Shown in pieces: positions 15,734-35,408 of a stretch of 64,000 nt of DNA. Location of the stretch: positions 1 to 64,000 of the forward strand of contig NZ_FAOZ01000027.1 in assembly GCF_001536285.1 (NCBI RefSeq), in the 5' to 3' direction. Source of the DNA: Parafrankia irregularis. Its GTDB lineage: Bacteria; Actinomycetota; Actinomycetes; Frankiales; Frankiaceae. The notes under the pieces are model-generated. The model had not been told where the DNA came from, ran no database searches, and was given only the letters and a program-made list of their open reading frames with translations. The translations under genes and the position numbers were made by a program. Position 1 is the stretch's first letter. Every line of letters begins with the position of its first letter.

Positions 15734-15742
15734 TGTGCCGTC

Positions 15743-17122: not shown

Positions 17123-17166
17123 TGACACCCCATCGCCGCCGGGACGACTGAGCCACTTGTGGTGAC

Positions 17167-17202: not shown

Positions 17203-17214
17203 TCGCCCGGCGGC

Positions 17215-18000
17215 TCAGTAGTTGCCGAGGCCGCCGCAGACGTTGAGGGCCTGCGCGGTGACCGCGCCGGCCGCGTCACTGACGAGATAGCGCACCATCG
17301 CGGCGACCTCGTCCGCGGCGACGTACCGCCCGAGCGGAACCCGGGTGGTGATCCGCTCGTGCACCTCCGTCGTCTCCACCCCCCAGATCTCGCTGTAGTG
17401 CTCCCGGACCTGTGCGGCCATCGGTGTCTCGACGAATCCCGGGCAGACCGCGTTGACGGTGATTCCGGTTCTGGCCAGTTCCAGGCCGAGCGCCTTGGAG
17501 AAACCGACCACGCCGTGCTTGGACGCCGAATAGGGCGCTGCGTGCACCACGCCCTGCTTTCCTCCGGTCGACGCGATGTTGATGATCCGCCCATAGGGCT
17601 GCCGCGTCATACCGCCGATGGTCAGCACCCGCTTGGTCACGAGGAAGACGCTCGTGAGGTTCGTGTCGATGACGTCGCGCCAGAGCTCGTCGTCGATCTC
17701 GGCGGTCGCACCGCCCCCGGGCCTGCCGGCGTTGTTCACCAGGATCTCGATCGGGCCGAAACGCTCGACACAGGCGGAGACCAGGCGGTCGACAGCGGCG
17801 GGCGACGTCACGTCGCAGGCATCTCCAGCGACCTCCCAGCCCTCCGCGGCGAGCTTCTCCACGGTGACGGCGACGGCCTCGGCGCGGCGCGAGCAGACGT
17901 AGACGCGGTGGCCCTCGGCGGCGAGAGCGCGGGCAGTTTCCAGTCCGATTCCACTGGTGGCTCCGGTGACAAGGGCGACCCGCCGGGCACTGGCAACCAT
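17215..18000 (-). CDS. Type II polyketide ketoreductase, ActIII-like
   Basis: This 261-aa protein is the same length as the actinorhodin ketoreductase ActIII and very close to it in sequence by eye. It has TGATSGIG (residues 12-19), LVNNAGRPGGGATAE, IASTGGKQGVVHAAPYSASK with the Ser-Tyr-Lys triad, VCPGFVETPMAAQVREHYS, and a C-terminus ending in LNVCGGLGNY. ActIII enzymes reduce one carbonyl (normally C-9) of a poly-beta-ketone tethered to ACP, using NADPH. I chose the ATG at 18000, which gives exactly the ActIII length. The gene is divergent from a radical SAM gene, sharing a promoter region with putative SARP boxes. Confidence 0.95.
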   Translation of the reverse strand: MVASARRVALVTGATSGIGLETARALAAEGHRVYVCSRRAEAVAVTVEKLAAEGWEVAGDACDVTSPAAVDRLVSACVERFGPIEILVNNAGRPGGGATAEIDDELWRDVIDTNLTSVFLVTKRVLTIGGMTRQPYGRIINIASTGGKQGVVHAAPYSASKHGVVGFSKALGLELARTGITVNAVCPGFVETPMAAQVREHYSEIWGVETTEVHERITTRVPLGRYVAADEVAAMVRYLVSDAAGAVTAQALNVCGGLGNY

Positions 18001-18340: not shown

Positions 18341-19810
18341 ATGACACTGACAGAGCACGAGGAACGCACTGATCCGTATCCCCGCAAGTGCTACCTGCCG
18401 TTCATCCTCTACCCGCCGGGAATGCATCGCACCACCGGTGGGAAGGAGTGGCTCGAAAGCCACATCGACATGCACCAGGACGGCGGTGACTTCGTCCTTT
18501 ACATCGGCGTCCCGTTCTGCCGCACGCGCTGCAAGTCGTGTCCCTACTTCGCGAGCCTGCTGCCCGAGAACGACTCCCGTGGCCGCGAGGAGAGGTACGT
18601 GGACGCGCTGGTGCGGGATCTCCGCCACTGGGCGTCGTACCGGAAGTTCGGCACCGGTCGCATCCGCACCATCTTCATCGGCGGGGGGACGGGCAGCATC
18701 CTGCGGACCAGCAGCCTGCGCCGCCTGGTCGACACCGTGCACGAGCTGTTCGAGGTCGCCGACGACGCCGAGTTCACGCTGGAGGGAAACGCGCGCGACT
18801 TCGACGACGAGAAGATCGAGTACGTCGCGCAGTCGAAGATCAACCGGTTGAGTCTCGGTGTCCAGTCGTTCCAGCCCGAGATTCTCGGGGTCATCGGGTC
18901 GCCGCACGCGGCCGAGGACAGTGCCCGGGTCATCCGGGCGTTCCAGGCCAGGGGCTTCCGCAACATCCAGCTCGACCTCATGTACAACATGCCGGGGCAC
19001 ACGCTCGACATCTGGAAGCGTGACCTGGAGACGCTGGCGACGCTCGACGTGCCGCACTTCACGATCTACCTCTACCGCATTCACCGGGACACCATCCAGG
19101 ACAAGCTCATCAGCCGGGGCCGGCTCAGCGCGCCGAAGGACCCGGAGGGCCCGATGGTGAAGGCGATGTATCGAGAGGCCGTCGAGATAGCCGAGCAGAT
19201 GGGTTACACCATGTACATGGTCGACCATTTCTGCAAGCCCGGCTACGAGAACATGTACAACCACTGGAACTGGAAGGTGTACATCGACACCCTGGCTGTC
19301 GGCCCCGGCTCCTACAGCTACTTCGACGGCTACCGCCTGGGCACCGAGACCGATGTCGAGAAGTACATCGACGCCGTGGAAAGCGGTGACTTCCTGATCA
19401 GCACCATCACCGACGAGCTCTCGCCCCGGGTCGAGCGCGAGCGGTACGTCGTCTTCGCTCTGCTCTACTACGAGATCGAGTACTCCTTCTACCGGGACAA
19501 GTTCGGGACGTCTTTCCTGGAGGACTTCACCGACGAACTGGCGCGGCTCGAACGCAAGGGACTCGTCGAGCTGACCGACGACCGGATGCGACTGACCCAG
19601 CTCGGGCTGATCTGGCACACCAACGTCATTCTCGAGTTCTTCAACCCGTCGTTCTGGAACGACTCGGACTCCCTGAACGAGCCGAACTGGTCCCTGAACG
19701 GCGTCATGGTCGAGGTCGGCGCGCACAGCCGCGAGTACTGGCTGGGCGACCGGGGCGTGACCTTCTTCCCGGCCGCGCCCGACGCGGACCCGACCCTCGC
19801 GACGGCGTAG
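18341..19810 (+). CDS. Radical SAM enzyme, HemN/HemW-like
   Basis: This 489-aa protein has the radical SAM cluster motif CRTRCKSC (C60, C64, C67; CX3CX2C), the SAM-binding GGGTGS (about 114-119), and LSLGVQSFQPEILGVIGSPH with DLMYNMPGHTLD as in coproporphyrinogen-oxidase-like enzymes. The C-terminal part resembles the HemN extension. HemN-like enzymes in secondary metabolism include class C radical methylases and cyclopropanases; true HemW or HemN would not be expected inside a polyketide cluster. It starts with a GAGGAG ribosome site and heads a plus-strand operon with SRPBCC, ligase and cyclase genes. The reaction on the polyketide, if any, is unknown. Confidence 0.88.
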   Translation: MTLTEHEERTDPYPRKCYLPFILYPPGMHRTTGGKEWLESHIDMHQDGGDFVLYIGVPFCRTRCKSCPYFASLLPENDSRGREERYVDALVRDLRHWASYRKFGTGRIRTIFIGGGTGSILRTSSLRRLVDTVHELFEVADDAEFTLEGNARDFDDEKIEYVAQSKINRLSLGVQSFQPEILGVIGSPHAAEDSARVIRAFQARGFRNIQLDLMYNMPGHTLDIWKRDLETLATLDVPHFTIYLYRIHRDTIQDKLISRGRLSAPKDPEGPMVKAMYREAVEIAEQMGYTMYMVDHFCKPGYENMYNHWNWKVYIDTLAVGPGSYSYFDGYRLGTETDVEKYIDAVESGDFLISTITDELSPRVERERYVVFALLYYEIEYSFYRDKFGTSFLEDFTDELARLERKGLVELTDDRMRLTQLGLIWHTNVILEFFNPSFWNDSDSLNEPNWSLNGVMVEVGAHSREYWLGDRGVTFFPAAPDADPTLATA

Positions 19811-19820: not shown

Positions 19821-20300
19821 ATGACCGACGTACGGGAACCCGAAGCGCCGGAGTCAGGCGCAGTGAGGGCCGGAACCCAGGACTTCCTCGCGTCCGCGAC
19901 GGTGACGGTCGGCGCGAACATGCATGACATCTGGGCGGTGTGGGTCGATGTCAACGCCTGGAAAAGCTGGGACACCGGCATCGAGAGCACGAAGCTGCAC
20001 GGCAACTTCAAGGCCGGCAACACCTTCACCCTCACCCCGGCCGGGGGCCAGCCGATGGAGGTCACCATCACCTCCGTCACCCAGGGGGAGGAGTTCTCCG
20101 ACGAGACCGTCCTGCCGTTCGGCACGATCCGGACGAGTCATCGCATGGAGCCACTCGGCGGGCTGGTACGGCTCACCCATGAGGTCCGCGCGGAGATCGC
20201 CGAGGACGCGGTGGAGATGTTCGGGGTGAAGATCTGGCCGCATCTGCAGAGCGGCCTGTCCACCGCGCTCAACGAACTCGCCGAGATCGTGGCGAACTGA
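19821..20300 (+). CDS. SRPBCC-fold protein (polyketide cyclase/dehydrase-like)
   Basis: This 159-aa protein has a single START/SRPBCC helix-grip domain: ASATVTVGANMHDIWAVWVDVNAWKSWDTGIESTKL is the typical N-terminal strand-helix-Trp pattern, and a long amphipathic C-terminal helix ends the protein. The family binds hydrophobic or polyketide-like ligands; in type II clusters such proteins can act as cyclases or chaperones. It lies 10 bp after the radical SAM gene and 11 bp before a ligase gene. A role in binding the radical SAM substrate is possible but unproven. Confidence 0.8.
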   Translation: MTDVREPEAPESGAVRAGTQDFLASATVTVGANMHDIWAVWVDVNAWKSWDTGIESTKLHGNFKAGNTFTLTPAGGQPMEVTITSVTQGEEFSDETVLPFGTIRTSHRMEPLGGLVRLTHEVRAEIAEDAVEMFGVKIWPHLQSGLSTALNELAEIVAN

Positions 20301-20311: not shown

Positions 20312-21883
20312 GTGTCTCCCGACAAGCTCGTGTCCCTGCTGGACCGGGGCACCCGCCCCGGCGTGTTCGGCGCCTGCGTCCAACACGCCGGGGCCACCCA
20401 CACGGCACGTCAGGTGCGCGCGGCGGTCACCCGACGCGCGCGCCGGCTGCTGGACCACGGTGTCGCCGCCGGCGACCGGGTGCTGCTGGTCTGTGACCAC
20501 GACCTGGATGCCGTGGTCACCCTGGCCGCGGCGAGCGCGCTGGGGCTGCGGGTGCTGATGCCCTACAACCTGGCGGCGGCCGCCGTGCCCGAGTGGCGGT
20601 CCATCGCGACCGCCGCCGGGCCGGACGCCGTCGTGCACCAGCGCCGTGACGGCGTCGGCCTCGCCGATCTGCGGGCGGTCTGTCCGCGCCTCGTCGGCCT
20701 GAGCGACCTGGGTGCCCTGAGCGACCTGGATGCCCCGAGCGGGCACGACGAGGACGACGAGGACGACGAGACGCTTCCCATCGCGTGTCCCGATCCCGTG
20801 GACGGATTCCTGGTCCTGTTCACCAGCGGCACCACCGGCGCTCCGAAGGCCATCAGCCTGAGTGAGGACGTCGTCGCCCGCCGGGTGATGGCCGTGACGG
20901 AGCGGCTCGCGTTCGGCTCCGACGCGCGGGTGTTCATGTCCGGTCTGCTCAACAACACGACCGGCGTCATCTTCTCCTTCGGCGCGCTGGCGCACGGCGC
21001 GACGCTGATCATCCCGGACGGCCGGGACGTCTCCACCTGGCCCGCGCAGGTCGCCCGGTCACGTGCCAGCCACATCATGCTGCGGCCGGTGGCGATGGAG
21101 CGGTTCGTGGCGGCCGTGGTCGCCGGCGGCACGGACCTGTCCTGCCTGCGGGTCGTCGCCTACGGAGCGGCTCCGATGCCACATCGGCTGCTGGAACTCG
21201 GCCGCCGGCTGATGCCGTGCGACTGGGTGCAGGGCTACGGCCTCAGCGAGACTTACGGCCCGTTCTGCTGGCTCGACGAGACCGCGCACCGGCAGCGACG
21301 ATTCGAGGACACCTACTGCGTCGGACGGCCGGACCGCACCGTGGGGGTCCGCCTCGAGCCACTGCCGGGCCATCCCGACGGCGTGGGAGAGATCGTCGTG
21401 CGCGGCGACCTGATGATGGACGGCTACCTCGACATCACGACCGGTCGCCTCGACCCGCCGGGTCCCTGGCTGCGCACCGGCGACATGGGCGCCTTCGGCC
21501 CGGACGGTGATCTGCTGCTCAAGGGCCGTATCGGAACCAGCGTGCTCAGCCAGGACGGCCACCGCATCTATCCGGAGGAGGTCGAGACCGTCCTCGCCGG
21601 CATGCCGGGTGTCGGTGAGGTCGTCGTCGTCGGCCTGAGCGGCGGCGGCGAGAACGATCACACCCGGACGCCGGTCGCCTGCCTGTGGGGGCCTGTCACC
21701 CACGACGGCCCGGCGGCGCTGCGCCGGGCGACGGCCGAGTTCCTGATTCCCCGGCTGAGCAGGGAGAAATGGCCTGATCTGATCTACGCGAGCGCGGATC
21801 CGTTTCCCAAGAGCGGAAACGACAAGATCCTCCGTGCTGAGACCGAGCGGGCGATCGACCGGCAGGCGCTGTTCCCGCTCTGA
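20312..21883 (+). CDS. Adenylate-forming acyl ligase of the polyketide cluster
   Basis: This 523-aa ANL enzyme has LFTSGTTGAPKAISL (about 170), QGYGLSETYGPF, a degenerate WLRTGDMG, GRIGTSVLSQDG, and the C-terminal FPKSGNDKIL containing the catalytic lysine. It should adenylate a carboxylic acid and load CoA or the ACP. A repeated SDLGALSDLDAP segment and an acidic DEDDEDDE run precede the P-loop, which is unusual. In aromatic polyketide clusters such ligases activate starter acids or late acyl groups. The start is GTG. It is followed by a tri-domain cyclase on the same strand. Confidence 0.88.
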   Translation: MSPDKLVSLLDRGTRPGVFGACVQHAGATHTARQVRAAVTRRARRLLDHGVAAGDRVLLVCDHDLDAVVTLAAASALGLRVLMPYNLAAAAVPEWRSIATAAGPDAVVHQRRDGVGLADLRAVCPRLVGLSDLGALSDLDAPSGHDEDDEDDETLPIACPDPVDGFLVLFTSGTTGAPKAISLSEDVVARRVMAVTERLAFGSDARVFMSGLLNNTTGVIFSFGALAHGATLIIPDGRDVSTWPAQVARSRASHIMLRPVAMERFVAAVVAGGTDLSCLRVVAYGAAPMPHRLLELGRRLMPCDWVQGYGLSETYGPFCWLDETAHRQRRFEDTYCVGRPDRTVGVRLEPLPGHPDGVGEIVVRGDLMMDGYLDITTGRLDPPGPWLRTGDMGAFGPDGDLLLKGRIGTSVLSQDGHRIYPEEVETVLAGMPGVGEVVVVGLSGGGENDHTRTPVACLWGPVTHDGPAALRRATAEFLIPRLSREKWPDLIYASADPFPKSGNDKILRAETERAIDRQALFPL

Positions 21884-22005: not shown

Positions 22006-23499
22006 GTGCGATATCACGCCAGCCACTCCATCGTCTGCGACACGCCTCCAGAACAGGTCTACGACGTGATCCGCCGCAGCCGGGACTGGCCGACGCTGCT
22101 TGAGCCGTGCCAGTCCGTCACCGTCCTGTCGGAAGAGCCCGACGGGGAGCACATCGAGATCTCCGCGCTCGTGGGCGGCGAACCGATGACCTGGCAGTCC
22201 CACCGCCGGTTCCACACCGACCTGTTCGGTGTGTCGGCCACCGTCGTCGTGCCCATGCCGCTGGTGAAGGCGATGACCACCACGTGGCGGGTGATAGGAG
22301 TCAACGCCACCCAGTGCGTGCTGCTCCTGGAGCATGACTACGACCTGTGCGACGACATCGGCGGCCAGGTCGAGGGCGTGACGACCCATGATCAGGCCGA
22401 GCGGTTCATCGGGGCGGCGATCGACGCGAACTCCCGCACCGAGCTGGGTAACCTCCGTGGCGCGGCGCATCGGGCGGCGGCCGGGGCGGCGCAGGCGGAT
22501 GGGGGAGACGCGATCGGACTGGACGGCTTCCTACGTCATTCGGTGGTCCTGCGGGCGGATCCGGACACGGTGTACGGGCTGATCCGCTCGACCGACTCCT
22601 GGCCCCGCCTGTTCGCCGCCTGCGTCGGCACCTCGGTGCTGGAGCGTTCCGATGACCAGGAAACGGTCCGCGTCGAGGCGGAGCAGGACGGAAGGCCGGT
22701 CGCCTGGAACACCCGCCGCCGCTACGTCGACTCCGTGCGGCGGGTCGAGTACGACCTTCCGGTGCCGATGCCCTTCCTGGAGTCGATGCACGGTGTCTGG
22801 CGGGTCGTGCCGCTGGAGAACGGCCGCTGCCTGCTGACGGTGGACCGCCACTGGCGGCTGCTGGCCGACGTCCGCGGTATCCGTGACGGGATCAGCACCC
22901 GGTCCGAGGCCGCGGCGTTCGTCCGTGACTTCGTCGACGGGAACGCCGCCGCCGAGATGCTCGCGATCCGGGCCTTCGTCGAGGAGAACACCGAAGCGCT
23001 GGTGTCGTTGACCAGCCGCTACCGCCTGCCGCACAGCCCTGACCGGGTTTTCGCGCTGCTGGCCGACATCGGTGGCTGGCCGGCGATGCTGGATCATCTC
23101 GACTCCCTGGACGTGCTCTACGACGACGGCGCCCACCAGGAGTTCACGATGAAGGTACGAACCGCGCCGGGTACGGCAGGGTCGGCCGGTGAGCTGGAGT
23201 GCATCCGCAGCGTCCGGCACTGTGACGAGCGGACGCTGTCGATCACCTACTTCCAGCCACAGCCACCGCCGGCCATGCTCCGCCATGCGGGCCACTGGCA
23301 GGTCCGCGGCATCGCGGGCGGCAGCGAGGTGATCTCGCACCACACCGTGGTCCTCGATCGCGACGGCTCCGCGGAGGTGTCCGGTGCGCATGAGCTCCGG
23401 CGGCGGAAGACCCTGGTCGCCGACCTGTTGGAACGCAACAGCCGGGCGACGGTGGACGCCTGCGGGCGGGCTCTGGACCGCTCCGCCGGCCAGCCGTGA
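22006..23499 (+). CDS. Three-domain SRPBCC aromatase/cyclase
   Basis: The protein is 497 aa. Domain 1 (about 1-150) begins YHASHSIVCDTPPEQVYDVI; domain 2 (about 172-330) begins LRHSVVLRADPDTVYGLIRS; domain 3 (about 334-490) begins SRYRLPHSPDRVFALLADIG. All three share the strand-helix-W pattern (SRDWP, TDSWP, IGGWP) and a conserved VVVPMPL or LPVPMPF loop in the first two. Actinorhodin-type aromatase/cyclases have two such domains (about 310 aa) and TcmN types have one, so three in tandem is unusual. It should direct first-ring folding and dehydration of the nascent polyketide. The stop overlaps the next gene by 4 bp. Confidence 0.9.
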   Translation: MRYHASHSIVCDTPPEQVYDVIRRSRDWPTLLEPCQSVTVLSEEPDGEHIEISALVGGEPMTWQSHRRFHTDLFGVSATVVVPMPLVKAMTTTWRVIGVNATQCVLLLEHDYDLCDDIGGQVEGVTTHDQAERFIGAAIDANSRTELGNLRGAAHRAAAGAAQADGGDAIGLDGFLRHSVVLRADPDTVYGLIRSTDSWPRLFAACVGTSVLERSDDQETVRVEAEQDGRPVAWNTRRRYVDSVRRVEYDLPVPMPFLESMHGVWRVVPLENGRCLLTVDRHWRLLADVRGIRDGISTRSEAAAFVRDFVDGNAAAEMLAIRAFVEENTEALVSLTSRYRLPHSPDRVFALLADIGGWPAMLDHLDSLDVLYDDGAHQEFTMKVRTAPGTAGSAGELECIRSVRHCDERTLSITYFQPQPPPAMLRHAGHWQVRGIAGGSEVISHHTVVLDRDGSAEVSGAHELRRRKTLVADLLERNSRATVDACGRALDRSAGQP

Positions 23500-24824
23500 G
23501 CAGGGCCGCCCCGGCCGGCGGGACGGGCGTGCCCGAAGCCACGGCGGCGAACGGCTCGGGTGCCACGGCCGCGGTGCCTGGCCTCGGCGGCTCGCCGGAC
23601 GTCCGGCGAGCACGTCCGGCGCGGGTTCCCGCCGCCGTGATGGAGGCCTGCGGGTACTTCCTTCCCCGCCTCATGTTTCTGCAGGCCCGGTACGCACCGC
23701 AGATCCACTGGGGTGATGTCGCGCTGGCACTCGACGGCTTCGGGCTCACCGAGATCGATCTGGGCTCGGCCGGGTTCTGGGACGAGTGGAGGGCCCGCTG
23801 GACCGCGCGGGCCGAGGTCTACGTGGCGGCGGCCGTGGCCTCGACCACTGCCGCCGGGCAGGCCCGCGCCTATCGGGGTGCGGCCGCCTGTTACCACTGG
23901 GCGGAGTTCATGGACTTCGGTGACCGGGCCCGCAAACTGGGCCTGCGCCACCTGGTGCGGACCTGCTTCGAACGCAGCCTGACCAGTCCCGATCCGGCGC
24001 AGGACGGCCTCGGCGACCTGGGCGGCGACCTGGGCGGCGACCTGGGTGGAGGCGTGCGCCGAGAGGCGAGGGCCCTCCCGGCGGGGAGCGTTTCCGCGGA
24101 ACCGGTGCCGTACTGGCTCTACCTTCCGCCGCGACGGGCGCGCGATGCCGATCGGCCGTTGGCGTGTGTCGTCCTGTCCAACGGGCTCGACTCGATGACG
24201 GAGGTCGAGATCCTCTCGTTGGCGGAGGCGTACCTCGACCGGGGGATCGCGGCTGTGCTGTTCGAGGGCCCGGGCCAGGGCCTGGACGCCGGTCAGACGC
24301 CCCTGCGCGTCGATATGGAGAGCGTCGTCGCGGCGCTGCTGGACGCGCTGCGCGCGGACAGTCGCCTCGCGGCCGATCGGATGGCCTTTCTCGGCGTCAG
24401 CTTCGGTGGTTATCTCGCGTTGCGGGTGGCTCGGACGCTCGGGCCGTCACTGCGATGCGTGGTCAACTTCTCCGGTGGCCCGCGTATCGCCCCGTTTGCG
24501 ACCCTGCCGCGCCGGCTGCGCGACGACTTCCGCTACACCTTCGGCGGCGGCGAGCCGCTCGACGACGACGACATGCAGCACCGCTTCGACGCACTTGCGT
24601 TTCCGCCAGATCCCGCACCGCATACCCGGGTGCTCAGCGTCCACGGCGCGCTTGACGACATCTTCCCACTCGCCGACCTGGTGGAGCTCGACCGGGCATG
24701 GGGTACCGGACACGAGTTGGTGACACACGAAAGCGAAGCACACGTGTGCCTGAATATGATCAACCTGTGTGGAATCGAGATAGCGGACTGGGTGGCACAC
24801 CACCTGCGGCCCGATCCGCGCTGA
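23496..24824 (+). CDS. Alpha/beta hydrolase, FrsA / DPO-hydrolase-like
   Basis: This 442-aa protein has a helical N-terminal region and a C-terminal alpha/beta-hydrolase core. The nucleophile elbow is GVSFGGYL (Ser near 302), the acid is in HGALDDIFP, and the histidine is in SEAHVC. The architecture matches 2,6-dihydropseudooxynicotine-hydrolase-type C-C hydrolases, a group that also includes the fungal Ayg1 enzyme that shortens a polyketide. A retro-Claisen or chain-release role is therefore an attractive inference. A GDLG unit is repeated three times (DNA about 24010-24050) in a linker. The GTG start overlaps the cyclase stop by 4 bp. Confidence 0.85.
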   Translation: MSRAAPAGGTGVPEATAANGSGATAAVPGLGGSPDVRRARPARVPAAVMEACGYFLPRLMFLQARYAPQIHWGDVALALDGFGLTEIDLGSAGFWDEWRARWTARAEVYVAAAVASTTAAGQARAYRGAAACYHWAEFMDFGDRARKLGLRHLVRTCFERSLTSPDPAQDGLGDLGGDLGGDLGGGVRREARALPAGSVSAEPVPYWLYLPPRRARDADRPLACVVLSNGLDSMTEVEILSLAEAYLDRGIAAVLFEGPGQGLDAGQTPLRVDMESVVAALLDALRADSRLAADRMAFLGVSFGGYLALRVARTLGPSLRCVVNFSGGPRIAPFATLPRRLRDDFRYTFGGGEPLDDDDMQHRFDALAFPPDPAPHTRVLSVHGALDDIFPLADLVELDRAWGTGHELVTHESEAHVCLNMINLCGIEIADWVAHHLRPDPR

Positions 24825-24909
24825 GTCGGATACCCCGCGACATGTTCCGTGCCGGCGCCCTGCTCTGTCGGTGTGGTGCCAGTCCTGTACCGCTGCCCCG
24901 GAGGATCCG

Positions 24910-25917
24910 GTGAACATGAGCCCACCGAGCCAGCCCCTGCCCGCGTCGCCGTCGGCACCTGCCGCCGCGGTCGGTACCAGGGTGTGGCACCGCTTCCGGA
25001 TACCGGCGCGGCCGCCGTTCCGGTGGGACCATTCCCTCGATTTCGTCTGCGGCTTTCCAGCCACCCGAGGCGAGCAGGTCGTCGCCGGAGCGCACCTGGT
25101 GAAAGCCTGGCGTATCGACGGCTGTTTGCTCCTTACCAGGATTGGCCCGTGGCCGGCCGACGACGAGGGCGCAGGCGCCGACCCTGGCGGGGGCCCGGGT
25201 GTGGGCGGTGATGGTCCCGGTGTCGAGGTGACTGTCGCCGCGCCGCATTCGCCATCCGAGGACGTTCTCGACGCGCTTACCGACCGGCTGCGTTTCTACC
25301 TCTCCCTGGATGACGACCTGACCGCCTTCGCGGCGGCCGCGGCGGCCGATCCTCCGTTCGCCCGGGTGGAACACCGTCTGCACGGTTATCACCAGGTCAA
25401 GTTCCCCTCGCCGTACGAGAACATCGTGTGGGCGATCCTTGCCCAGCGGACCCCCATCACCGCTGCCCGTGCCGTGAAGCTACGGCTGATGCAGCACCTC
25501 AACCCGCCGTTGGCGGGCTTCGGGGCCGAGGTGACACCGTTCCCGAGTCCTGACCAGCTCGCCGAACTCCCGCTCGAGGTTCTCACCGGGATCCTGGGAA
25601 ACAGCCGCAAGGCGGGGTACGTGTCCGGCTCGGTCCGGCGTCTCCTGGAGATCGAGGAGACGTTCCTGCGCACCGGCGACGTCGACGAGGTGGAGCGGTT
25701 CCTGCTGTCGCTGCCCGGAATCGGACCGTGGTCGGCGACGTTCGTCATGATCAGAGGGCTGGGGCGGATGGAGCGCCTGCCCACGGACACCGAGCTGCTC
25801 AAGGCCGGCCGGCGGGTGTACGGCGCGGAGGTGTCCGCGTCGGACCTGGTTTCCCTGGCGGCGCCGTACGGCGCCCAGGTCGGCTACTGGGCGCACTACC
25901 TGAGGGCGGGCGGATGA
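24910..25917 (+). CDS. HhH-GPD DNA glycosylase, AlkA-like
   Basis: This protein of about 335 aa looks like an alkylpurine or 3-methyladenine DNA glycosylase. The N-terminal half has the AlkA-type fold segment, then VKFPSPYENIVWAILAQRT. The helix-hairpin-helix LLSLPGIGPWSATFVMIRG is followed by LPTDTELL with the catalytic aspartate. GGAGG at 24900-24904 serves GTG 24910 or ATG 24916. It sits 85 bp after the hydrolase gene and overlaps a nucleosidase gene by 4 bp. Its presence inside the polyketide cluster may be chance, or it may protect against a DNA-damaging product; the sequence does not decide. Confidence 0.85.
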   Translation: MNMSPPSQPLPASPSAPAAAVGTRVWHRFRIPARPPFRWDHSLDFVCGFPATRGEQVVAGAHLVKAWRIDGCLLLTRIGPWPADDEGAGADPGGGPGVGGDGPGVEVTVAAPHSPSEDVLDALTDRLRFYLSLDDDLTAFAAAAAADPPFARVEHRLHGYHQVKFPSPYENIVWAILAQRTPITAARAVKLRLMQHLNPPLAGFGAEVTPFPSPDQLAELPLEVLTGILGNSRKAGYVSGSVRRLLEIEETFLRTGDVDEVERFLLSLPGIGPWSATFVMIRGLGRMERLPTDTELLKAGRRVYGAEVSASDLVSLAAPYGAQVGYWAHYLRAGG

Positions 25918-27255: not shown

Positions 27256-28089
27256 ATGTCAGTTTCAGTCAGTCCCATATCTAGCGACACGAAGCCCGCG
27301 GCTCCGCCCGCACGCGTCGTGTCCGATTCGGACGGGGGCGATATGAAATTCAAGGTACTCGGCCGTGTCGAGATCGCGAACGGCACCGCCTCGACAGCGC
27401 TCGCCAGGTCGAAGATCGGCCATATGCTCTCGTTGCTCCTGGCCATGAACAACGAGACCGTCAGCGTGGACATGCTGATCGACGAGCTGTGGGGGGAGCA
27501 GGTCCCCCGCAGCGCGCAGGCCACGCTGCAGACCTACGTCTATATGGCACGGAAGATGTTCACCGAGAGTCTGCGGGTCCCGAACGCCCAACGCCTGCTG
27601 GTTACCCAGTCGCCCGGTTACATGCTCGCGGCCGACCAGGACGCGATCGACTCGGTCGTCTTCGAGCGCCTGGTCCGGGAAGGCAGCGAGAGCCTGGAGC
27701 GGGGTGACCCGGAATCGACCGTCGTCACGCTCACCGACGCGCTGAAGATGTCCCGCGGGTGCCCGTTCGCGGGCATGCCGACCGGGACGGCCCTCAAGGC
27801 GCACGTCACCTATCTTCAGGAACTCCGCCTGACCGCTCTCGGTCTTCGCATCGATGCCCGAGAACAGCTCGGGCGGCACCGGGACATCATTCCCGAGCTA
27901 CGTTCCCTGGTGGCCGAACACCCGCTCAACGAGGGATTCCACGCCCAGCTGATCAAGTCGCTGCTGCGCTGCGGTCGGCGGGCGGAGGCGCTGCAGGCCT
28001 ACCAGCGACTCTGGCAGATCCTGGACGCCGAGCTCGGACTCCAGCCGACGCCCGAGGTCCAGCGGCTGCACCACGAGGTCCTTGGGTAG
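27256..28089 (+). CDS. SARP-family pathway activator
   Basis: This 277-aa protein has a winged-helix DNA-binding domain of the OmpR type at its N-terminus (MKFKVLGRVEIANG, then LIDELWGEQVPRSAQATLQTYVYMARK) and a BTAD bacterial transcriptional activation domain after about residue 120 (FERLVREGSESLERGD to the end). This small two-domain form is the ActII-ORF4/RedD type that switches on antibiotic clusters. It should bind the TTGAG repeats in the two divergent biosynthetic promoters. The start may be ATG 27256 or, more like other SARPs, ATG 27343, which is preceded by GGGGG. Confidence 0.92.
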   Translation: MSVSVSPISSDTKPAAPPARVVSDSDGGDMKFKVLGRVEIANGTASTALARSKIGHMLSLLLAMNNETVSVDMLIDELWGEQVPRSAQATLQTYVYMARKMFTESLRVPNAQRLLVTQSPGYMLAADQDAIDSVVFERLVREGSESLERGDPESTVVTLTDALKMSRGCPFAGMPTGTALKAHVTYLQELRLTALGLRIDAREQLGRHRDIIPELRSLVAEHPLNEGFHAQLIKSLLRCGRRAEALQAYQRLWQILDAELGLQPTPEVQRLHHEVLG

Positions 28090-28334: not shown

Positions 28335-29258
28335 TCAGGCCAGGCAGGTCGGCAGACGCCCCCGGTTGTACGCCACCATCTCGGCGAAGACCGGCCCGAC
28401 GTCCAGCGGCGGAGCGTCCGGTCCTCCGACCACCTCGGCGTACGCGCGGTGCAGGTTCCCGACCACCCGCTCCGGGTCGAGCAGGTGACCGAACTCGCCC
28501 GGCCCTGCCGCGCGGGCGGCCCGGCTGATCGACCAGCCGGCCGCGACCCCTTCGGCGGCGATCTGTTGAATCCAGCGCAGGTACGCCACGTTCTCGGCGA
28601 ACACCTCCGGCCCGGCGACCGCTCCGTGCCCGCAGACGACAGTGGCCGGTTCGAGGGCGCGCAGACGTTCGATCGCCGTGAGCGATCCCGCTACCGAACC
28701 CATCAGTGTGAACGGCGTGCAGCCCGACAGGACGACGTCGCCGGTGAACAGGACCCGCTGTTCGGGCAGCCAGGCCACGATGTCGTTGCTGGTGTGCGCC
28801 GGCCCGACGTGGATCAGCTCGACGCGGTGCCGACCGACCGTCAGCGCGACCCGGTCGGCGAAGGTGAGCGTCGGGGCCGGCACCTGGAGGTCGCCCCAGT
28901 CGACGTCCGGCCACAGGCCGGTCAGGGCGAGACCTGTGCTGGCCAGCTCCTCGGCGGCCCGCTCGTGCGCGATGATCTCGGCCGCTGGTCCGAACACCTG
29001 ATTGCCGAACGTGTGATCGCCGTGGTGATGGGTGTTCACCACCGTTCGGCGCGGCCCCGCGCCGAATCCGTCGACGGTCTCCCGCAGCTTCCGGGCACGG
29101 TTCAGGGTGGCGAGCGTGTCGATGACGACGACCCCGTCGGGGCCGACGACCAGGCCCGCGTTGCTCACACACCACCCACCGGGCAGCTGGGTGTAGGCGT
29201 AGACGTCCTCGGCGACCTCGACCAGCTCTGATCTGGTCGAGGTCGCCGCTGCTGTCAC
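28335..29258 (-). CDS. Metallo-beta-lactamase-fold polyketide cyclase, ActIV-like
   Basis: This 307-aa protein has the zinc-binding motif THHHGDH (residues 76-82), the further ligands GPAHTSNDIVAWLP and FTGDVVLSG, and VVCGHGAV. The N-terminus (AEDVYAYTQLPGGWCVSNAGLVVG) and the C-terminal HLLDPERVVGNLHRAYAEVVG match the ActIV second-ring cyclase/thioesterase group of type II polyketide clusters. It should close a later ring and release the chain from ACP. It is the last gene of the KS-CLF-ACP operon and overlaps the ACP stop/start by 4 bp. Confidence 0.9.
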   Translation of the reverse strand: MTAAATSTRSELVEVAEDVYAYTQLPGGWCVSNAGLVVGPDGVVVIDTLATLNRARKLRETVDGFGAGPRRTVVNTHHHGDHTFGNQVFGPAAEIIAHERAAEELASTGLALTGLWPDVDWGDLQVPAPTLTFADRVALTVGRHRVELIHVGPAHTSNDIVAWLPEQRVLFTGDVVLSGCTPFTLMGSVAGSLTAIERLRALEPATVVCGHGAVAGPEVFAENVAYLRWIQQIAAEGVAAGWSISRAARAAGPGEFGHLLDPERVVGNLHRAYAEVVGGPDAPPLDVGPVFAEMVAYNRGRLPTCLA

Positions 29259-29539
29259 GGCCGCGCCGCCACGGGGGCGGGGAGCTCGCCGGCCCCGGGT
29301 GCCCCGTTCACGAGGTCGAGCAGGTCACGTGGGGTCTGCATCTCGAAGATGTCGGCGTCGGGAATACGCACGCCGTACTCCTGGGCGATGCGTGCGGCCG
29401 CCTCCATCAGGGCCAGGGAGTCATACCCGAGTTCGGTGAACTCGGTGTCCGCCAGGTCGGTCGACGCCACCTCGGCGATCGGTTCTCCGGCGACCGCCAC
29501 CAGCAGGTGGCACAGCTCGTCAAGGGTCATGGCAGCCAT
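29255..29539 (-). CDS. Acyl carrier protein (type II PKS)
   Basis: This 94-aa ACP has the phosphopantetheine attachment site ELGYDSLALMEAAARI with Ser at about residue 41, and the acidic helix II/III typical of the family (GVRIPDADIFEMQTPRDLLDLVN). It carries the growing chain for the minimal PKS. I chose the ATG at 29539; an ATG at 29530 is also in frame. It lies 21 bp downstream of the CLF gene and overlaps the cyclase gene by 4 bp, an order (KS-CLF-ACP) standard for aromatic polyketide clusters. Confidence 0.95.
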   Translation of the reverse strand: MAAMTLDELCHLLVAVAGEPIAEVASTDLADTEFTELGYDSLALMEAAARIAQEYGVRIPDADIFEMQTPRDLLDLVNGAPGAGELPAPVAARP

Positions 29540-29559
29540 GAACGTTCGTCCTCTCGGTG

Positions 29560-30798
29560 TCAGGGTGTTTCGCTGCCCGGTCGCGGGCTTCGACGGACGA
29601 CGACGGCCGAGTTGAACCCCCACCGACCGCGCCCCAGCACCAGTGCATGGGCCAGGTCGGCTGGTCTCGGAGCGTCGCGCACGAGGTCGATCCGGTAGCT
29701 GTCGGGGACCCTGTCGGTGGCAGCGGTCGGAGGGATCAACCCGTCACGCATGGCCATCAGCGCGACGGCCACGTCGACCGGTCCGCCGCCCGAATACAGC
29801 CGGCCCGTGACCGCCTTCGGCACGGTGACCGGGACGCCGCACGCCCCGAACAGCTCGGTGATCGTCTCGGCCTCGCTGCGGTCCAGCTCGGCGACGCCGG
29901 CGCCGTCGGCGAAGACCACGTCGACGTCGGCCGGGCCGATACCCGCGTCCTCGAGCGCCAGCAGTGCCGCGCGGCCGAGCGCGGGCCGCCCACCCGACCA
30001 GGGCGGCGGGTCGAAGGTCGACCCGTAGCCGGCGATCTCGCCGTAGAGAGTCTGGGCACCACGAGAGGCAGCCGTGCCGGCGTCCTCCAGGACCAGAATC
30101 GCCCCGCCCTCGCCTGGCACATATCCGCGTGCGTCCGTGTCGAAAGGCAGATAGGCCCGATCCGGATCGGTGGCGGTACTCACCTGACCACCTGAAAGCT
30201 GGGCGGCCCATCCCCACGGATCGAGGGCCGAGTCGGCCCCGCCGGTGAGCATCATCGGCGTCCCGCGCCTGACGGCCCGGCAGGCATGACCGATCGCGTC
30301 CAGCCCACCGGCCTGCTCGGCCACCAGCGCGCCGCTCGGGCCACGCAGCGTGTTGCGGATGGAGATCTGACCGGTGCTCACCGCGTAGAACCAGGCGAAG
30401 GACTCGTAGACGCTGACCGCGGCCGGGCCGGTCGTCCACAGCTTGCGGAACTCACGGTGCGTGAACTCGAACCCGCCGCAGGCGTTGGACGTGATCACAC
30501 CGGTCTCGTAGTCGGTGTAGGTGCCCGGCTCGACCTTGGCGTCCCGCAGCGCCCAGTCCGCCGCGATCAGTACGAACCGGGTGGATATATCGGTCTGGAC
30601 CAGCAGGCGGCTCGGCAGCAGCTCCGCCGGGTTCAACCCGGTGATCTGGCCCGCGAGCCGAGCCGGAAACCCGGATGTGTCGAACCGGGTCAGCTCGGAT
30701 ATGCCAGAACGGCGATCACAGACGCCCTCCCAGAACGGTTCGAGGCCGAGACCGCCGGGCGCCAGTACCCCGATCCCGGTGACGACGACGGCGCTCAT
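29560..30798 (-). CDS. Ketosynthase beta / chain length factor
   Basis: This 412-aa thiolase-fold protein is the partner of the ketosynthase. The active-site cysteine is replaced by glutamine (VAEQAGGLDAIG, Q162), which is the signature of a chain length factor. It forms the KS-CLF heterodimer that sets polyketide length. Gatekeeper residues that predict chain length would need alignment, so I do not assign octa-, deca- or longer ketide. Its start overlaps the KS-alpha stop by 4 bp. Confidence 0.96.
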   Translation of the reverse strand: MSAVVVTGIGVLAPGGLGLEPFWEGVCDRRSGISELTRFDTSGFPARLAGQITGLNPAELLPSRLLVQTDISTRFVLIAADWALRDAKVEPGTYTDYETGVITSNACGGFEFTHREFRKLWTTGPAAVSVYESFAWFYAVSTGQISIRNTLRGPSGALVAEQAGGLDAIGHACRAVRRGTPMMLTGGADSALDPWGWAAQLSGGQVSTATDPDRAYLPFDTDARGYVPGEGGAILVLEDAGTAASRGAQTLYGEIAGYGSTFDPPPWSGGRPALGRAALLALEDAGIGPADVDVVFADGAGVAELDRSEAETITELFGACGVPVTVPKAVTGRLYSGGGPVDVAVALMAMRDGLIPPTAATDRVPDSYRIDLVRDAPRPADLAHALVLGRGRWGFNSAVVVRRSPRPGSETP

Positions 30799-32063
30799 GC
30801 CGGGGCGCCCGTCGTACGACGCAGCACCATGGCGCTCTGGAAGCCACCGAACCCGCTGCCCACCGTGAGCACGGCGTCCAGGCGCGCGTCGCGCGCGGTG
30901 ATCGGAACATAGTCGAGGTCACATTCGGGATCACGTTCGTACAGGTTCGCGGTCGGTGGGATCACGCACCGGTCGATCGCCAGCGCGCAGGCGGCGATCT
31001 CGATCGAGCCGATCGCGCCGAGCGAGTGACCGACCATGGACTTGATCGAACTGACCGGTACCCGGTACGCGTCGTCTCCCAGGACCCGCTTGTAGGCGGC
31101 GGTCTCATGCCGGTCGTTCTGCCTCGTGCCGGAGCCGTGCGCGTTGATGTAGTCGATGTGCCCGGGGCCCACCCGAGCGTCGTCCATCGCCACCCGGATC
31201 GCCTCCGCCATCTCACGGCCGTCGGCCTTCAGACCGGTCATGTGATAGGCGTTGCAGCGCGAGGCGTATCCGGCCACCTCCGCGTAGACGCGCGCTCCAC
31301 GCGCCCGGGCGTGCTCGTAGGATTCCAGCACCAGCACCGCGGCGCCCTCGGCGAGCACGAAGCCGTCCCTCGACCGGTCGAACGGCCGCGACGCATGCTC
31401 GGGATCGTCGTTCCGTGGAGTGGTCGCCTTGATCGCGTCGAAGCAGGCGACGACGATCGGGGTGATCGGGGTGTCCGCCGCGCCGGCCAGTGCCACATCG
31501 GCGCGGCCCTCGCGAATCAGCTGACAGGCATGTCCCACGGCGTCGATGCCCGATGTGCAGCCGTTGGAGACCATCGCCACCGGCCCCTGCGCGCCGACGG
31601 TCCAGGCGACTTCCGCCGGCATCCGGCTCGGTATCAGGTAGTCGAACATGTGGGGCGACACCGCGTCGTTGTCCACCACCCAGTCGCGACCGCCGTGAGA
31701 GACGGCGAGGTATTGCCGTTCCAGGCTGGTGGCGGCGGCGACGGCGCTGCCGATGCTGACGGCTATGGCGGCCGGATCCACGCGATCGACGTCCAGACCG
31801 CTGTCGCTCACCGCCTCACGCGCGCACACCACCGCGAACTGCGCGGCCCGGTCCATGCGCTGCGTCTCCTGCGCCGTCAGCCCGTCCACCGCCGGATCGA
31901 ACGACGCCTCGGCGGCGACCTGGGAGCGGAAGGGCGACGCGTCGAACATGGAGATCGTCCGGGTGGCCGTGCGCCCGGAGGCCAGCATTTCCCAGAATGC
32001 CTCGCGGTCGCCGCCGCCCGGCGTCCGCACGCCAATTCCCGAGATAACGACCCGGCGGTTCAC
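30795..32063 (-). CDS. Ketosynthase alpha (type II PKS)
   Basis: This 422-aa condensing enzyme has Cys169 in SNGCTSGIDAVG, His309 in NAHGSGTRQND and His346 in SMVGHSLGAIG, a complete catalytic triad. With CLF and ACP it forms the minimal PKS that builds a poly-beta-ketone from malonyl units. The frame is open far upstream, but the GTG at 32063 follows GTGGAGCGGGCAC and gives the standard KS length. It heads the operon KS-CLF-ACP-MBL cyclase and is divergent from an MFS exporter. No malonyl transferase or phosphopantetheinyl transferase is in the window, as is usual when these come from fatty-acid synthesis. Confidence 0.97.
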   Translation of the reverse strand: MNRRVVISGIGVRTPGGGDREAFWEMLASGRTATRTISMFDASPFRSQVAAEASFDPAVDGLTAQETQRMDRAAQFAVVCAREAVSDSGLDVDRVDPAAIAVSIGSAVAAATSLERQYLAVSHGGRDWVVDNDAVSPHMFDYLIPSRMPAEVAWTVGAQGPVAMVSNGCTSGIDAVGHACQLIREGRADVALAGAADTPITPIVVACFDAIKATTPRNDDPEHASRPFDRSRDGFVLAEGAAVLVLESYEHARARGARVYAEVAGYASRCNAYHMTGLKADGREMAEAIRVAMDDARVGPGHIDYINAHGSGTRQNDRHETAAYKRVLGDDAYRVPVSSIKSMVGHSLGAIGSIEIAACALAIDRCVIPPTANLYERDPECDLDYVPITARDARLDAVLTVGSGFGGFQSAMVLRRTTGAPA

Positions 32064-32352: not shown

Positions 32353-33879
32353 ATGTCGTCGACACCGGTCGACCTCACGGGCGACGAGGCGGCGCCGGGG
32401 AGCGCCGCCGGACCACCCCCGATATCGGAAGCGGCCGCGGCCGAGGACGCCACACCTCCCGATCGCCAGGAGGCAGGTGCCGACGACCAGGTGGTGGGGC
32501 GACACGTATGGCTCGTCTCCGGCGTCGTCGTCGTCGGCGCGTTCATGACGCAGCTCGACGGTGCCCTGGTGAACGTCGGACTGGCGACCGTGGCCCAGGA
32601 CCTCGGCGCGAGCCTTTCGACCGCCCAGTGGATTGTCAGCGGGTATCTCCTGGCCCTGGTGATCGGCCTTCCGCTGTGCGGATGGGCCAGCCGGAGAATC
32701 GGGGCGGGGTCACTGTGGCTGTGGGTGCTCACCGGTTTCACCGTGACCTCGGCGCTTTGCGCGGCAGCACCGGACATCGGCTCCCTCGTCGCCGCGCGCG
32801 CGGCACAGGGGTTCGCCGGTGGTCTGCTCCTTCCCGCCGGTCAGACAATCATCGCCCAGGTCAGCGGCAAGAAGCTGATGGGCCGAGTGATGAGTACCGT
32901 CGGAATGGCGCTCGTGCTCGGCCCCGCGCTCGGACCGACAGTCGGCGGCCTGCTCATCGCGCATGCGTCCTGGCGGTGGCTGTTCCTGGTGAACATTCCG
33001 GTGGGCGTCGTGGGCCTGTGGCTCGGCCGCAGGCTCATCCCGCGCGGTGACCGGGCGCCAGGCTCGAACTTCGACCTCACCGGCTTCGCCCTGATCGGTG
33101 TCGCCCTGCCCGCCCTCACCTTCGCGGTCAGCTGGTCCAGCGACCACCACGGACGGTCGCTGCCGCTGATCGCCATCCCCCTGCTGGTCGGAGCGGTGGC
33201 GCTCGCAGCGTTCGTCCGGCGCGGCCGGCGCGTCCAGACGCCGCTGCTGAACACCCGCCTGCTCACCAGGCGGGTGTTCGCCGCGGCCGCGGCGTCCAGC
33301 TTCCTCGCCGGAGTGATCCAGTTCGGCGCGCTGGTGATCTGGGCGCTCTACTTCCAGCTCGCGCGCGGGTACGACGTCGTCGAGACGGGCCTCGCGATGA
33401 TCGGTTTCGCGGCAGGCGCCGCGGTGTTGCCGGTGGCCGGCCGGCTGACCGACCGGTTCGGCGGTGGCCCGGTGTCCCTCGCCGGCGGGTTGCTGACCAC
33501 CGTGGCGTTCGTTCCGGTGGCGCTGCTCCCGGACGGCATCGACATGATCGTCATCGAGGGCTGTCTGTTCGTACTGGGTGTCGGCAACGCACTGTCCGTC
33601 GTTCCGTCCTCCACCGCGGCGTACGTCGCGGTGGAACCGGCGCAGCTCCCGGATGCCGTCACGATGATCAACGTCTTTCTCCGGCTTGGTGGCGCGGTCG
33701 GGGCGGCCCTGCTGGTCACGGTGCTCAGCTGGTCCGCGGGCACCGACGTCACGGCGGCAGGCAGCACCGGGAGCGCGACCTTCCACGCGCCGTTCTGGTG
33801 CCTGTGCGCGCTGTCGGGGCTGTTCGTCGCCTCGGCGAGCTGGCTGGTGGCATCCACGGGGCGACCGGCCCGGCGGTGA
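32353..33879 (+). CDS. MFS drug exporter, DHA2 (EmrB/QacA) type
   Basis: This is a 508-aa membrane protein with about 14 hydrophobic helices after a polar N-terminus of about 55 residues. The motif FMTQLDGALVNVGLATVAQD in helix 1 and PRxGPxxGG-like motif C (LVLGPALGPTVGGLL) are typical of 14-TM proton-driven efflux pumps. It should export the polyketide or related toxic compounds. It has its own GGAGG ribosome site, is divergent from KS-alpha and shares the SARP-box region. The next gene is convergent. Confidence 0.92.
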   Translation: MSSTPVDLTGDEAAPGSAAGPPPISEAAAAEDATPPDRQEAGADDQVVGRHVWLVSGVVVVGAFMTQLDGALVNVGLATVAQDLGASLSTAQWIVSGYLLALVIGLPLCGWASRRIGAGSLWLWVLTGFTVTSALCAAAPDIGSLVAARAAQGFAGGLLLPAGQTIIAQVSGKKLMGRVMSTVGMALVLGPALGPTVGGLLIAHASWRWLFLVNIPVGVVGLWLGRRLIPRGDRAPGSNFDLTGFALIGVALPALTFAVSWSSDHHGRSLPLIAIPLLVGAVALAAFVRRGRRVQTPLLNTRLLTRRVFAAAAASSFLAGVIQFGALVIWALYFQLARGYDVVETGLAMIGFAAGAAVLPVAGRLTDRFGGGPVSLAGGLLTTVAFVPVALLPDGIDMIVIEGCLFVLGVGNALSVVPSSTAAYVAVEPAQLPDAVTMINVFLRLGGAVGAALLVTVLSWSAGTDVTAAGSTGSATFHAPFWCLCALSGLFVASASWLVASTGRPARR

Positions 33880-34904: not shown

Positions 34905-35408
34905 CTATCCGGCTTCGCGGTCGGTGCCGGCACGCTGGACGTCGCCGGCGCCGCCCGCGGCATCCGACGTGGCTTCGACCCCGAACTGGGCCAGCCTGCG
35001 CAGCTCCGCCATGAGCGGACCGGGGGCGTCGCCGAAGAAGGCCTCGTCGGCGTCCTCGACGACCTTGAACGCACGCAGCGCCAGGGCGGCTCCCGCATCG
35101 GTCACCACGATGACCTTCGCCCGGGTGTCCCGGGTGTCGGGACGCCGTTCGACGAGCCCGCGGCTTTCGAGGCGGCGAAGCACCTCGGAGGTCATCTTCA
35201 CATCCGTGGCGGCCTGCGCGGCGATCGTGACCTGGTTTGGCTGCTGGCCCTGCCTGTTGAGCCACCAGGCGCACGCCAGCAGCACGAACTGAACGTGGGT
35301 GAGCCCCAGCGGCCCGAGTGCGTCGGCCACGGAGCGCTGCCAGCGCAGAGTGGTCCGCCAGAGGAGAAAGCCCGGGCTGTCGGCGGGGCCGCCAGCGAAC
35401 CGGGTCAC
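34905..35408 (-). CDS. MarR-family transcriptional regulator
   Basis: This 167-aa winged-helix regulator has the DNA-binding core TIAAQAATDVKMTSEVLRRLESRGLVERRPDTRDTRAKVIVVT, with the wing in RPDTRDTRAK. MarR proteins usually bind as dimers to palindromes and are released by phenolic ligands, which suits a cluster making aromatic products. It overlaps the upstream SRPBCC gene by 4 bp. A perfect palindrome at 35873-35897, just upstream of the operon, is the probable autoregulatory site. Confidence 0.9.
   Translation of the reverse strand: MTRFAGGPADSPGFLLWRTTLRWQRSVADALGPLGLTHVQFVLLACAWWLNRQGQQPNQVTIAAQAATDVKMTSEVLRRLESRGLVERRPDTRDTRAKVIVVTDAGAALALRAFKVVEDADEAFFGDAPGPLMAELRRLAQFGVEATSDAAGGAGDVQRAGTDREAG

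Follow-up and report, generated by a model that had tools for sequence, protein, structure and literature searches.

A probable CoeI-type radical S-adenosylmethionine enzyme in an aromatic polyketide gene cluster of Parafrankia irregularis, and its relatives in four phyla

The stretch of DNA analyzed here (the window; positions 1 to 64,000 of contig NZ_FAOZ01000027.1, assembly GCF_001536285.1, Parafrankia irregularis, host genome 9.54 Mb) carries at 18341-19810 a gene for a HemN-like radical S-adenosylmethionine (SAM) enzyme, which lies within a gene cluster for an aromatic polyketide. The enzyme is very probably class C-like and of the CoeI type, adding a carbon from SAM to C2, between two phenols, of the anthraquinone AQ-256, which we take to be 1,3,8-trihydroxyanthraquinone. 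The interpretation of this gene from its letters was correct and is mostly explained by the published work on CoeI; new beyond CoeI are the spread of the family, its association with different synthases, a missing arginine for the first SAM (SAM I), and linked genes for proteins acting on DNA bases. The analysis thereby extends one published enzyme to a small family scattered over four phyla, and suggests trimming by an AntI-type enzyme as the origin of the substrate.

CoeI (accessions MN601984-MN601997) is a HemN-like enzyme of 493 amino acids from the coelulatin (coe) cluster of a soil metagenome, whose reaction places a single SAM-derived carbon on C2 of a trihydroxyanthraquinone (PMC9714029). 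Deletion of coeI led to accumulation of compound 4, and purified CoeI methylated compound 4 when supplied with SAM and dithionite; whole cells also yielded hydroxymethyl and methoxymethyl forms (PMC9714029). The hydroxymethyl compound reacts non-enzymatically with methanol and dithiothreitol, for which the authors propose a route through an unsaturated ketone (PMC9714029).

Radical SAM gene and protein

The open reading frame (ORF) at 18341-19810 on the plus strand starts with ATG, has a GAGGAG sequence 7 bases 5' of this start and a G+C fraction of 0.92 at third codon positions, and is a genuine, intact frame of 489 amino acids. Its features are:

18341..19810, plus strand: HemN-type (class C-like) radical SAM enzyme of the CoeI type, 489 amino acids (from Pfam, NCBIfam, tree, alignment, and Table 1 of PMC9714029)
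18518..18541, plus strand: [4Fe-4S] cluster loop C60-RTR-C64-KS-C67; the clade signature CRxxCKxCPYF extends to F70 (base 18550)
18899..18901, plus strand: codon of Ser187; Arg occupies this position in the aligned rows of HemN, HemW and NocN (contact to the SAM I carboxylate in NocN)

The HemN-like character read from the sequence is borne out by Pfam, with Radical_SAM at 62.1 bits (cut-off 29.5) and HemN_C at 31.4 bits (cut-off 24). The motifs that had been called intact, CX3CX2C (CRTRCKSC) and GGGTG, are both present, and all 13 aligned relatives keep the three cysteines and GGGTG unchanged. These alignments exclude the frameshifted Parafrankia copy (L006, L016, L018), the truncated locus L017 and duplicate loci; the L008 protein was used from residue 29 of its frame for the tree and residue mapping, and in two other alignments the start of its sequence is probably out of frame. 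The predicted fold, modeled from 12 aligned sequences only, matches HemN (1olt) along most of the chain, with a Z score of 27.3 over 384 aligned residues (root-mean-square deviation 4.1), the next best match being at Z 14.2. NocN is not among the best 50 structural matches listed, which is uninformative (its entries may postdate the library); the sequence search found NocN.

Residues of NocN were mapped to the window protein by HMMER alignment, and to the 32 aligned rows of the tree described below. In NocN, according to the available part of PMC12871812, Tyr34 stacks on the second SAM (SAM II), Asp196 contacts both SAMs and Arg171 pairs with the SAM I carboxylate; the contacts to SAM II given there are Tyr34, Asp196, Arg153, Ser225 and Tyr96. 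Four of the mapped positions are invariant in all 13 aligned family members, namely Tyr54 (NocN Tyr34, HemN Tyr56), Asp212 (Asp196), Arg169 (Arg153) and Arg246 (Arg230). Arg246 is otherwise found only in the two NosN/NocN-like rows, with Ala in 6 of 6 HemN rows, and Ser225 of NocN corresponds to Thr241. The CRxxCKxCPYF loop is common to all 13 members; its Lys65 is invariant in the family and occurs in none of the 20 reference rows, and position 66 is Ser, Ala or Gly in the family and aromatic in 20 of 20 references.

It is extremely improbable that the gene encodes a heme enzyme or chaperone (HemN, HemW or HutW/ChuW) that stands in the cluster by chance. The protein has the HemN fold and its best NCBIfam scores are with HutW/ChuW (TIGR04107; 222.8-222.9 bits) and HemW (181.7 bits), but these lie below the curated cut-offs (400 for HutW/ChuW), as does the score with HemN (TIGR00538; 123.2 bits, cut-off 324.95); the score with the STM4012 model is also far below its cut-off. 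The HemW model (TIGR00539, cut-off 205.4) has three matches in the host genome, on C1 (240.6 bits), in the window (182.5 bits) and on C32 (134.8 bits), and a proper HemW is thus encoded elsewhere. In a tree of 32 rows, the window protein and 11 relatives form a single clade (support 100/99), with all reference rows outside (8 HemW, 6 HemN, 2 STM4012-like, 2 NosN/NocN-like and 2 unclassified, labeled by motif, origin and grouping rather than model score, except for the host's own HemW and a NocN fragment). The tree carries a warning of long branches meeting (L049/L050 with the whole coe clade; L003 with L046) and was used for the clade, not for its sister group. Furthermore, a ketosynthase (KS) homologue is found in the available flanks of 9 of 12 family loci; the remaining three (L006, L010, L011) are undecided, with most of the upstream flank present and the downstream flank ended by contig ends. 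HemW, HemN and HutW identities were therefore rejected on the curated cut-offs, the separate HemW and the clade, and the outcome that the sequence-only reading had named as damaging, a place in the HemW clade with no second hemW in the genome, is not what was found.

On C32 of the host genome (L003, 479-2751), the STM4012-like radical SAM gene adjoins a second ORF that has, by eye, a CX3CX2C motif near its start.

Gene cluster and comparison with the coelulatin cluster

The gene set around the radical SAM gene matches that of the coe cluster: MarR regulator, MFS exporter, KS, chain length factor (CLF), acyl carrier protein (ACP), a 306-residue 'cyclase', two ketoreductases, an 'aminopeptidase', a 487-residue cyclase, ligase, radical SAM enzyme and SARP regulator, where the correspondence is by names and sizes in Table 1 of PMC9714029 and not by alignment. 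The best match of CoeI reported there is from Modestobacter deserti (82%; PMC9714029), which is Goekera deserti in the taxonomy used here, and the Goekera deserti copy (L005) is 81% identical to the window protein. Two residues named by the docking of CoeI, Lys16 and Thr427, recur at the same positions of the window protein (K16 and T427), neither of them invariant in the wider family.

The radical SAM gene is the first of six tightly packed plus-strand genes (successive gaps of 10, 11, 122, -4 and 46 bases), as expected from the earlier proposal that it heads an operon with the SRPBCC, ligase and cyclase genes. The shared SARP-box promoter proposed with it was not recovered: a direct-repeat search found no SARP-box-type repeat in 17980-18345, and in an alignment of four upstream regions no obvious block of conservation precedes the Streptomyces and Goekera copies; degenerate boxes would escape both approaches. 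The genes of the cluster are:

17215..17997, minus strand: SDR reductase, divergent neighbor, CoeJ-like by size (260 versus 261 amino acids)
19821..20300, plus strand: stand-alone SRPBCC protein, 159 amino acids, encoded immediately 3' of the radical SAM gene throughout the close subgroup, without counterpart in the coe table
20312..21883, plus strand: AMP-binding acyl ligase, CoeH-like by annotation
22006..23499, plus strand: aromatase/cyclase with three SRPBCC domains, CoeG-like by size and annotation (497 versus 487 amino acids)
23496..24824, plus strand: AntI-type polyketide-trimming hydrolase/lyase, CoeF by position and size, with Ser302 and His416 aligned with Ser245/His355 of AntI
24871..25917, plus strand: HhH-GPD DNA glycosylase, 348 amino acids, 26.1 bits (just below the Pfam value of 26.2), proposed self-protection gene
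25946-26638: ORF without family match
27256..28089, plus strand: SARP regulator, CoeN-like by annotation
28335..29258, minus strand: metallo-beta-lactamase-fold protein, 307 amino acids, by size alone probably the counterpart of CoeD ('cyclase', 306 amino acids)
29255..29623, minus strand: ACP, from its GYDSLALME motif and not from Pfam; the true start is probably internal
29560..30798, minus strand: CLF
30795..32057, minus strand: KS alpha, with the actinorhodin KS as best solved relative
32353..33879, plus strand: MFS exporter, CoeM-like by annotation
34097..34888, minus strand: SDR ketoreductase, CoeE-like by size
34905..35408, minus strand: MarR regulator, CoeL-like by annotation
35405..35851, minus strand: second small SRPBCC protein, kept beside MarR in Goekera (L005) and in the same-family genome L017

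The predicted fold of the 19821-20300 product is nearest to SMU.440 (3ijt), followed by plant norcoclaurine synthase and hormone-binding proteins, with TcmN at rank 42; these structural neighbors of the model point to no function.

For the supply of the substrate, the product of 23496-24824, which occupies the place of the coe 'aminopeptidase', has two long stretches, covering both halves of the protein, that are homologous to AntI of Photorhabdus (6hxa; 369 bits, E 2.7e-109). Its Ser302 and His416 align with Ser245 and His355 of AntI (numbered with a constant offset of 15 in the printed 6hxa chain), which in the accessible portion of PMC11165489 are the catalytic pair of an enzyme that shortens an octaketide to give the heptaketide anthraquinone AQ-256. 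AQ-256 (PMC11165489, same portion) and coe compound 4 (PMC9714029) are both reported at m/z 255 [M-H]-. Compound 4 is taken as 1,3,8-trihydroxyanthraquinone because it is described as the des-hydroxymethyl form of compound 2; its printed formula, C15H10O6, contradicts its own mass (PMC9714029). Photorhabdus is not mentioned in the coe paper, by term search (PMC9714029). With an AntI-type trimming enzyme in the operon, the operon therefore probably makes its own AQ-256, and seems, as judged by homology, to cover the making of the substrate as well as its decoration.

Family members and their synthases

A scan of the genome collection yielded 12 loci of the family, and a plasmid search added a thirteenth (L054, Mixta intestinalis plasmid). 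Their sources are Streptomyces, Goekera, Parafrankia, an oxalobacterium, Pseudomonas, Mixta theicola, a gammaproteobacterial metagenome-assembled genome (MAG), an acetobacterium, Nostoc, a Chlamydiae MAG, Rosenbergiella and Serratia, spanning four phyla (Actinomycetota, Pseudomonadota, Cyanobacteriota and Chlamydiota) at 98-43% identity to the window protein. Members are scarce in the sampled genomes: at E <= 1e-90, one was found in one of 396 Actinomycetota genomes (the window's own) and in one of 369 genomes from the class to which the Pseudomonas member belongs (that member itself), and at E <= 1e-60 in three of 196 relatives, the window's own genome included.

The closest named locus found is that of Parafrankia sp. 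EUN1f, 98% identical to the window protein; in this draft (L006, near 10345 and 12621) the radical SAM and ligase genes have frameshifts, perhaps by sequencing error. In the same-family genome L017, the radical SAM match stops at codon 206, beside an SRPBCC remnant. The distant cluster version of Mixta intestinalis lies at 9482-18927 of plasmid NZ_CP028272.1, typed as IncFII, and a location on such a plasmid fits the patchy spread of the family.

In all 13 sources that continue downstream (the window, L004-L009, L011-L015 and L054), the first or the second gene 3' of the radical SAM gene encodes an SRPBCC or ACP-SRPBCC protein; the 8 kb long L010 has no sequence downstream. Six of the 13 have an ACP among these next genes, separate in Nostoc (L012) and apparently fused to the cyclase in L011, L013, L014, L015 and L054, with Pfam support in L012 and L013 and read from the DSQ motif in the others. 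The ACP-SRPBCC fusions, in which the motif is DSQ in place of DSL, lie directly 3' of the radical SAM gene (L013, 11407-12120; L015, 11424-12146; L054, 10898-11620; also L011 and L014).

Within the family, the window, L004, L005, L007, L008 and L009 form a close subgroup (67-83% identity), in which homologues of the AntI-like, ligase and three-domain cyclase genes are present in full length, where the L008 ligase is in two pieces and the three SRPBCC domains were identified by Pfam in the window cyclase only. Co-occurrence with the tri-domain cyclase, suggested earlier as a check, thus holds for 5 of 5 further close-subgroup loci with enough flank. The available flanks of L012-L015 contain no homologue of the window AntI-like or ligase gene at E <= 1e-5; an AMP-binding fragment is present at L012 8343-8654.

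In a KS tree (calculated without the CLF rows of L007 and L009), the actinobacterial copies group with ordinary actinobacterial type II KSs encoded in those genomes (100/100), L007-L009 form a second group (100/100) and the remainder a third (97/100). The window KS scores 672.6 bits against the actinorhodin KS and 308 bits against 6smo, whereas the L007 KS scores 555 bits against 6smo and 369 bits against the actinorhodin KS. We take 6smo to be an Ant-type KS of Photorhabdus (the search match labels it PKS_KS domain protein only). Identity to the window counterpart is 81% in L005 and 75% in L007 for the radical SAM protein, as compared with 73% and 44% for the KS. Against the possibility that L007-L009 are just diverged coe clusters, KS identity falls far more than that of the radical SAM protein and the best KS match is reversed. 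The KSs of these clusters are, by sequence comparison, of at least two distinct lineages. Replacement of the KS would be the simpler reading; alternatively, other clusters may have lost the radical SAM gene. The better conservation of the radical SAM protein (75% to L007) than of the KS (44%) suggests the same substrate from different synthases. In L014, L015 and plasmid L054, only one KS-like gene, a divergent one, was seen (29-34% identity over the aligned part to the window KS), which makes a full type II polyketide synthase less sure there.

Proposed reaction and alternatives

In the proposed pathway, the actinobacterial KS, CLF and ACP would make an octaketide, which the reductase and SRPBCC cyclases would form into a bicycle; the AntI-like enzyme would trim this to a heptaketide and close the third ring, as shown for Photorhabdus AntI, to which it is homologous. 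The radical SAM enzyme would bind two SAMs in the geometry shown for NocN, and cleave SAM I at the iron-sulphur cluster to a 5'-deoxyadenosyl radical. This radical would take a hydrogen from the methyl group of SAM II, and the resulting methylene radical would add to C2. Loss of S-adenosylhomocysteine would leave a methylene, to be reduced to a methyl group or trapped by water as a hydroxymethyl group, a split proposed by the CoeI authors and presumed to apply here. The hydroxymethyl product would be a masked electrophile, and the linked gene for a DNA glycosylase may serve to protect the producer from it. The sequence-only reading had placed a methyl group or C-C bond on the polyketide or its starter; the polyketide is favored by the one-carbon transfer of the relative CoeI (PMC9714029), and there is no support for the starter.

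Several observations weigh against this assignment. CoeI gave only the methyl product in vitro, which its authors suspect to be a by-product (PMC9714029). The link to CoeI is indirect, through Table 1 and the common relative G. deserti. Two small SRPBCC genes (19821-20300 and 35405-35851) are not among the genes of the coe table, and the final product may therefore differ. The structure model is middling (pLDDT 68.9, with loop 62-69 below 50). The catalytic Tyr276 of NocN is His296 in the window protein, with His also in 6 of 6 HemN rows; the SAM II contact Tyr96 is Phe112, with Tyr in 9 of 11 other aligned members; and Arg171, which contacts SAM I, is Ser187, the position being Ser in 12 and Ala in one of 13 members and Arg in 20 of 20 references. 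To our knowledge, Arg171 is a detail of NocN and not a published requirement of class C. That Lys65 stands in for the missing arginine is a guess.

An unlikely alternative is that the same class C-like methylene transfer acts on an ACP-bound or early cyclized intermediate, such that the carbon is added before closure of the third ring. The SRPBCC gene within the next two genes in 13 of 13 sources, accompanied by an ACP in six, would agree with such a substrate, as would the flanks of L012-L015 with their lack of AntI-like and ligase homologues (E <= 1e-5); however, CoeI acts on the finished anthraquinone 4, which accumulates upon deletion of coeI (PMC9714029), and the AntI-like gene is kept in five other close-subgroup loci with enough flank. 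Formation of another bond, by cyclopropanation or by linkage to a second molecule through a methylene bridge (as by YtkT/C10P/Jaw5 or NosN), is decidedly unlikely. These enzymes are of the same HemN-like class, and the SRPBCC protein of 19821-20300, absent from the coe table, could divert a methylene intermediate; yet an anthraquinone has no isolated alkene, the Pfam scan found no methyltransferase family among 30 window proteins, so that no C10Q-like partner was seen, and CoeI gives a methyl and, in cells, a hydroxymethyl group (PMC9714029). Transfer of the carbon to C2 of the finished anthraquinone is the preferred reaction. No second HemN-like enzyme of an aromatic type II cluster was found in titles and abstract beginnings of the open-access literature, which is weak evidence of absence.

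Linked genes for DNA-base proteins

The DNA glycosylase of the window (24871-25917) has homologues (E <= 1e-5) at other positions in the clusters of L004 (7182-8144) and L005 (17773-18636) at 47-50% identity, and the best paralogues elsewhere in these three genomes have 28-33% only; every actinobacterial cluster with sufficient flank, three in all, thus contains it. All three glycosylases keep a GxGPWSA motif in the helix-hairpin-helix region and a later Asp. The remaining flanks of the 12-locus set contain no HhH-GPD homologue at E <= 1e-5, where L006 ends before the place and L054 was outside the comparison. The coe cluster has a neighboring DNA glycosylase, ORF11, of 267 amino acids (348 in the window), likened to it by annotation alone; deletion of ORF11 had no effect on production and the authors place it outside the cluster (PMC9714029).

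By tblastn across the window and 13 loci, an EVE-domain gene is present in 8 of 10 non-actinobacterial loci (not in L010 and L012) and in none of four actinobacterial sources; it was identified by Pfam in seven loci and by tblastn in L011:

L007 12003-12515: EVE-domain gene
L008 11887-12294: EVE-domain gene
L009 11959-12396: EVE-domain gene
L011 9155-9562: EVE-domain gene
L013 9439-9945: EVE-domain gene
L014 16456-16872: EVE-domain gene
L015 16469-16885: EVE-domain gene
L054 15930-16343: EVE-domain gene

The hydroxymethyl product is electrophilic, and the yatakemycin cluster also holds a HemN-like enzyme (PMC9714029). In the portions of the sources at hand, that cluster encodes the AlkD-type DNA glycosylase YtkR2 for self-resistance (PMC8626424), and trioxacarcin, an aromatic polyketide, has HTH_42-type glycosylases (PMC8934636). 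An electrophilic product, recurring glycosylase or EVE genes and these precedents together make a self-protection role of 24871-25917 plausible by analogy. In its widest form, the idea would make the CoeI clade a warhead family: an anthraquinone from at least two KS lineages would be converted into a masked ortho-quinone methide with alkylating activity toward nucleophiles, DNA among them, with self-protection by the HhH-GPD glycosylase in actinobacteria or by an EVE-domain base reader in proteobacteria and Chlamydiota, and with SAM I held without Arg, perhaps via Lys65 of CRxxCKxCPYF. This is put forward tentatively, and as a whole is rather doubtful.

The family lends itself to asking how SAM is cleaved by a HemN-like protein that lacks the customary Arg, and whether one radical reaction is used with both KS lineages. 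The 'boundary' glycosylase of the coe cluster may be a resistance gene, which would go unnoticed in a screen for production.

Other features of the window

Two adjacent genes at 12241-13884 and 13891-15543 each encode an N-terminal TIR domain and C-terminal WD40 repeats, and are possibly a defence or signalling pair (12241-15543). Downstream of the cluster, 40792-41883 encodes a protein of the 'Beta protein' family (PF14350).

Comparison with known systems

The cyclopropanases YtkT/C10P/Jaw5 (PMC9714029, PMC6050322; the latter as available in part) share with the window enzyme the HemN-like type and the transfer of one carbon, and differ in that the window enzyme has no isolated alkene in its proposed substrate and no methyltransferase partner was seen. 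NosN and NocN (PMC12871812, available part) share the HemN-like two-domain architecture, the Tyr that stacks on SAM II, the Asp that bridges both SAMs, and Arg246 (Arg230); they differ in substrate class, in Tyr276 to His296, Tyr96 to Phe112 and Arg171 to Ser187, and by a separate clade in the tree. The glycosylases of yatakemycin and trioxacarcin, in the portions cited above, are of the AlkD and HTH_42 types, whereas that of the window is of the HhH-GPD type. The Photorhabdus ant cluster has in common the AntI-type enzyme that trims an octaketide to a heptaketide anthraquinone, whereas the window KS is of the actinorhodin type and antABCDEFGHI, as described in the accessible portion of PMC11165489, is without a radical SAM gene. 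The closest known system is that of CoeI, with the same neighborhood by annotation and size, a similar length (493 versus 489 amino acids), the CX3CX2C motif, K16/T427 and a shared relative in G. deserti at 81-82%; the window cluster differs from it by the small SRPBCC genes 19821-20300 and 35405-35851.

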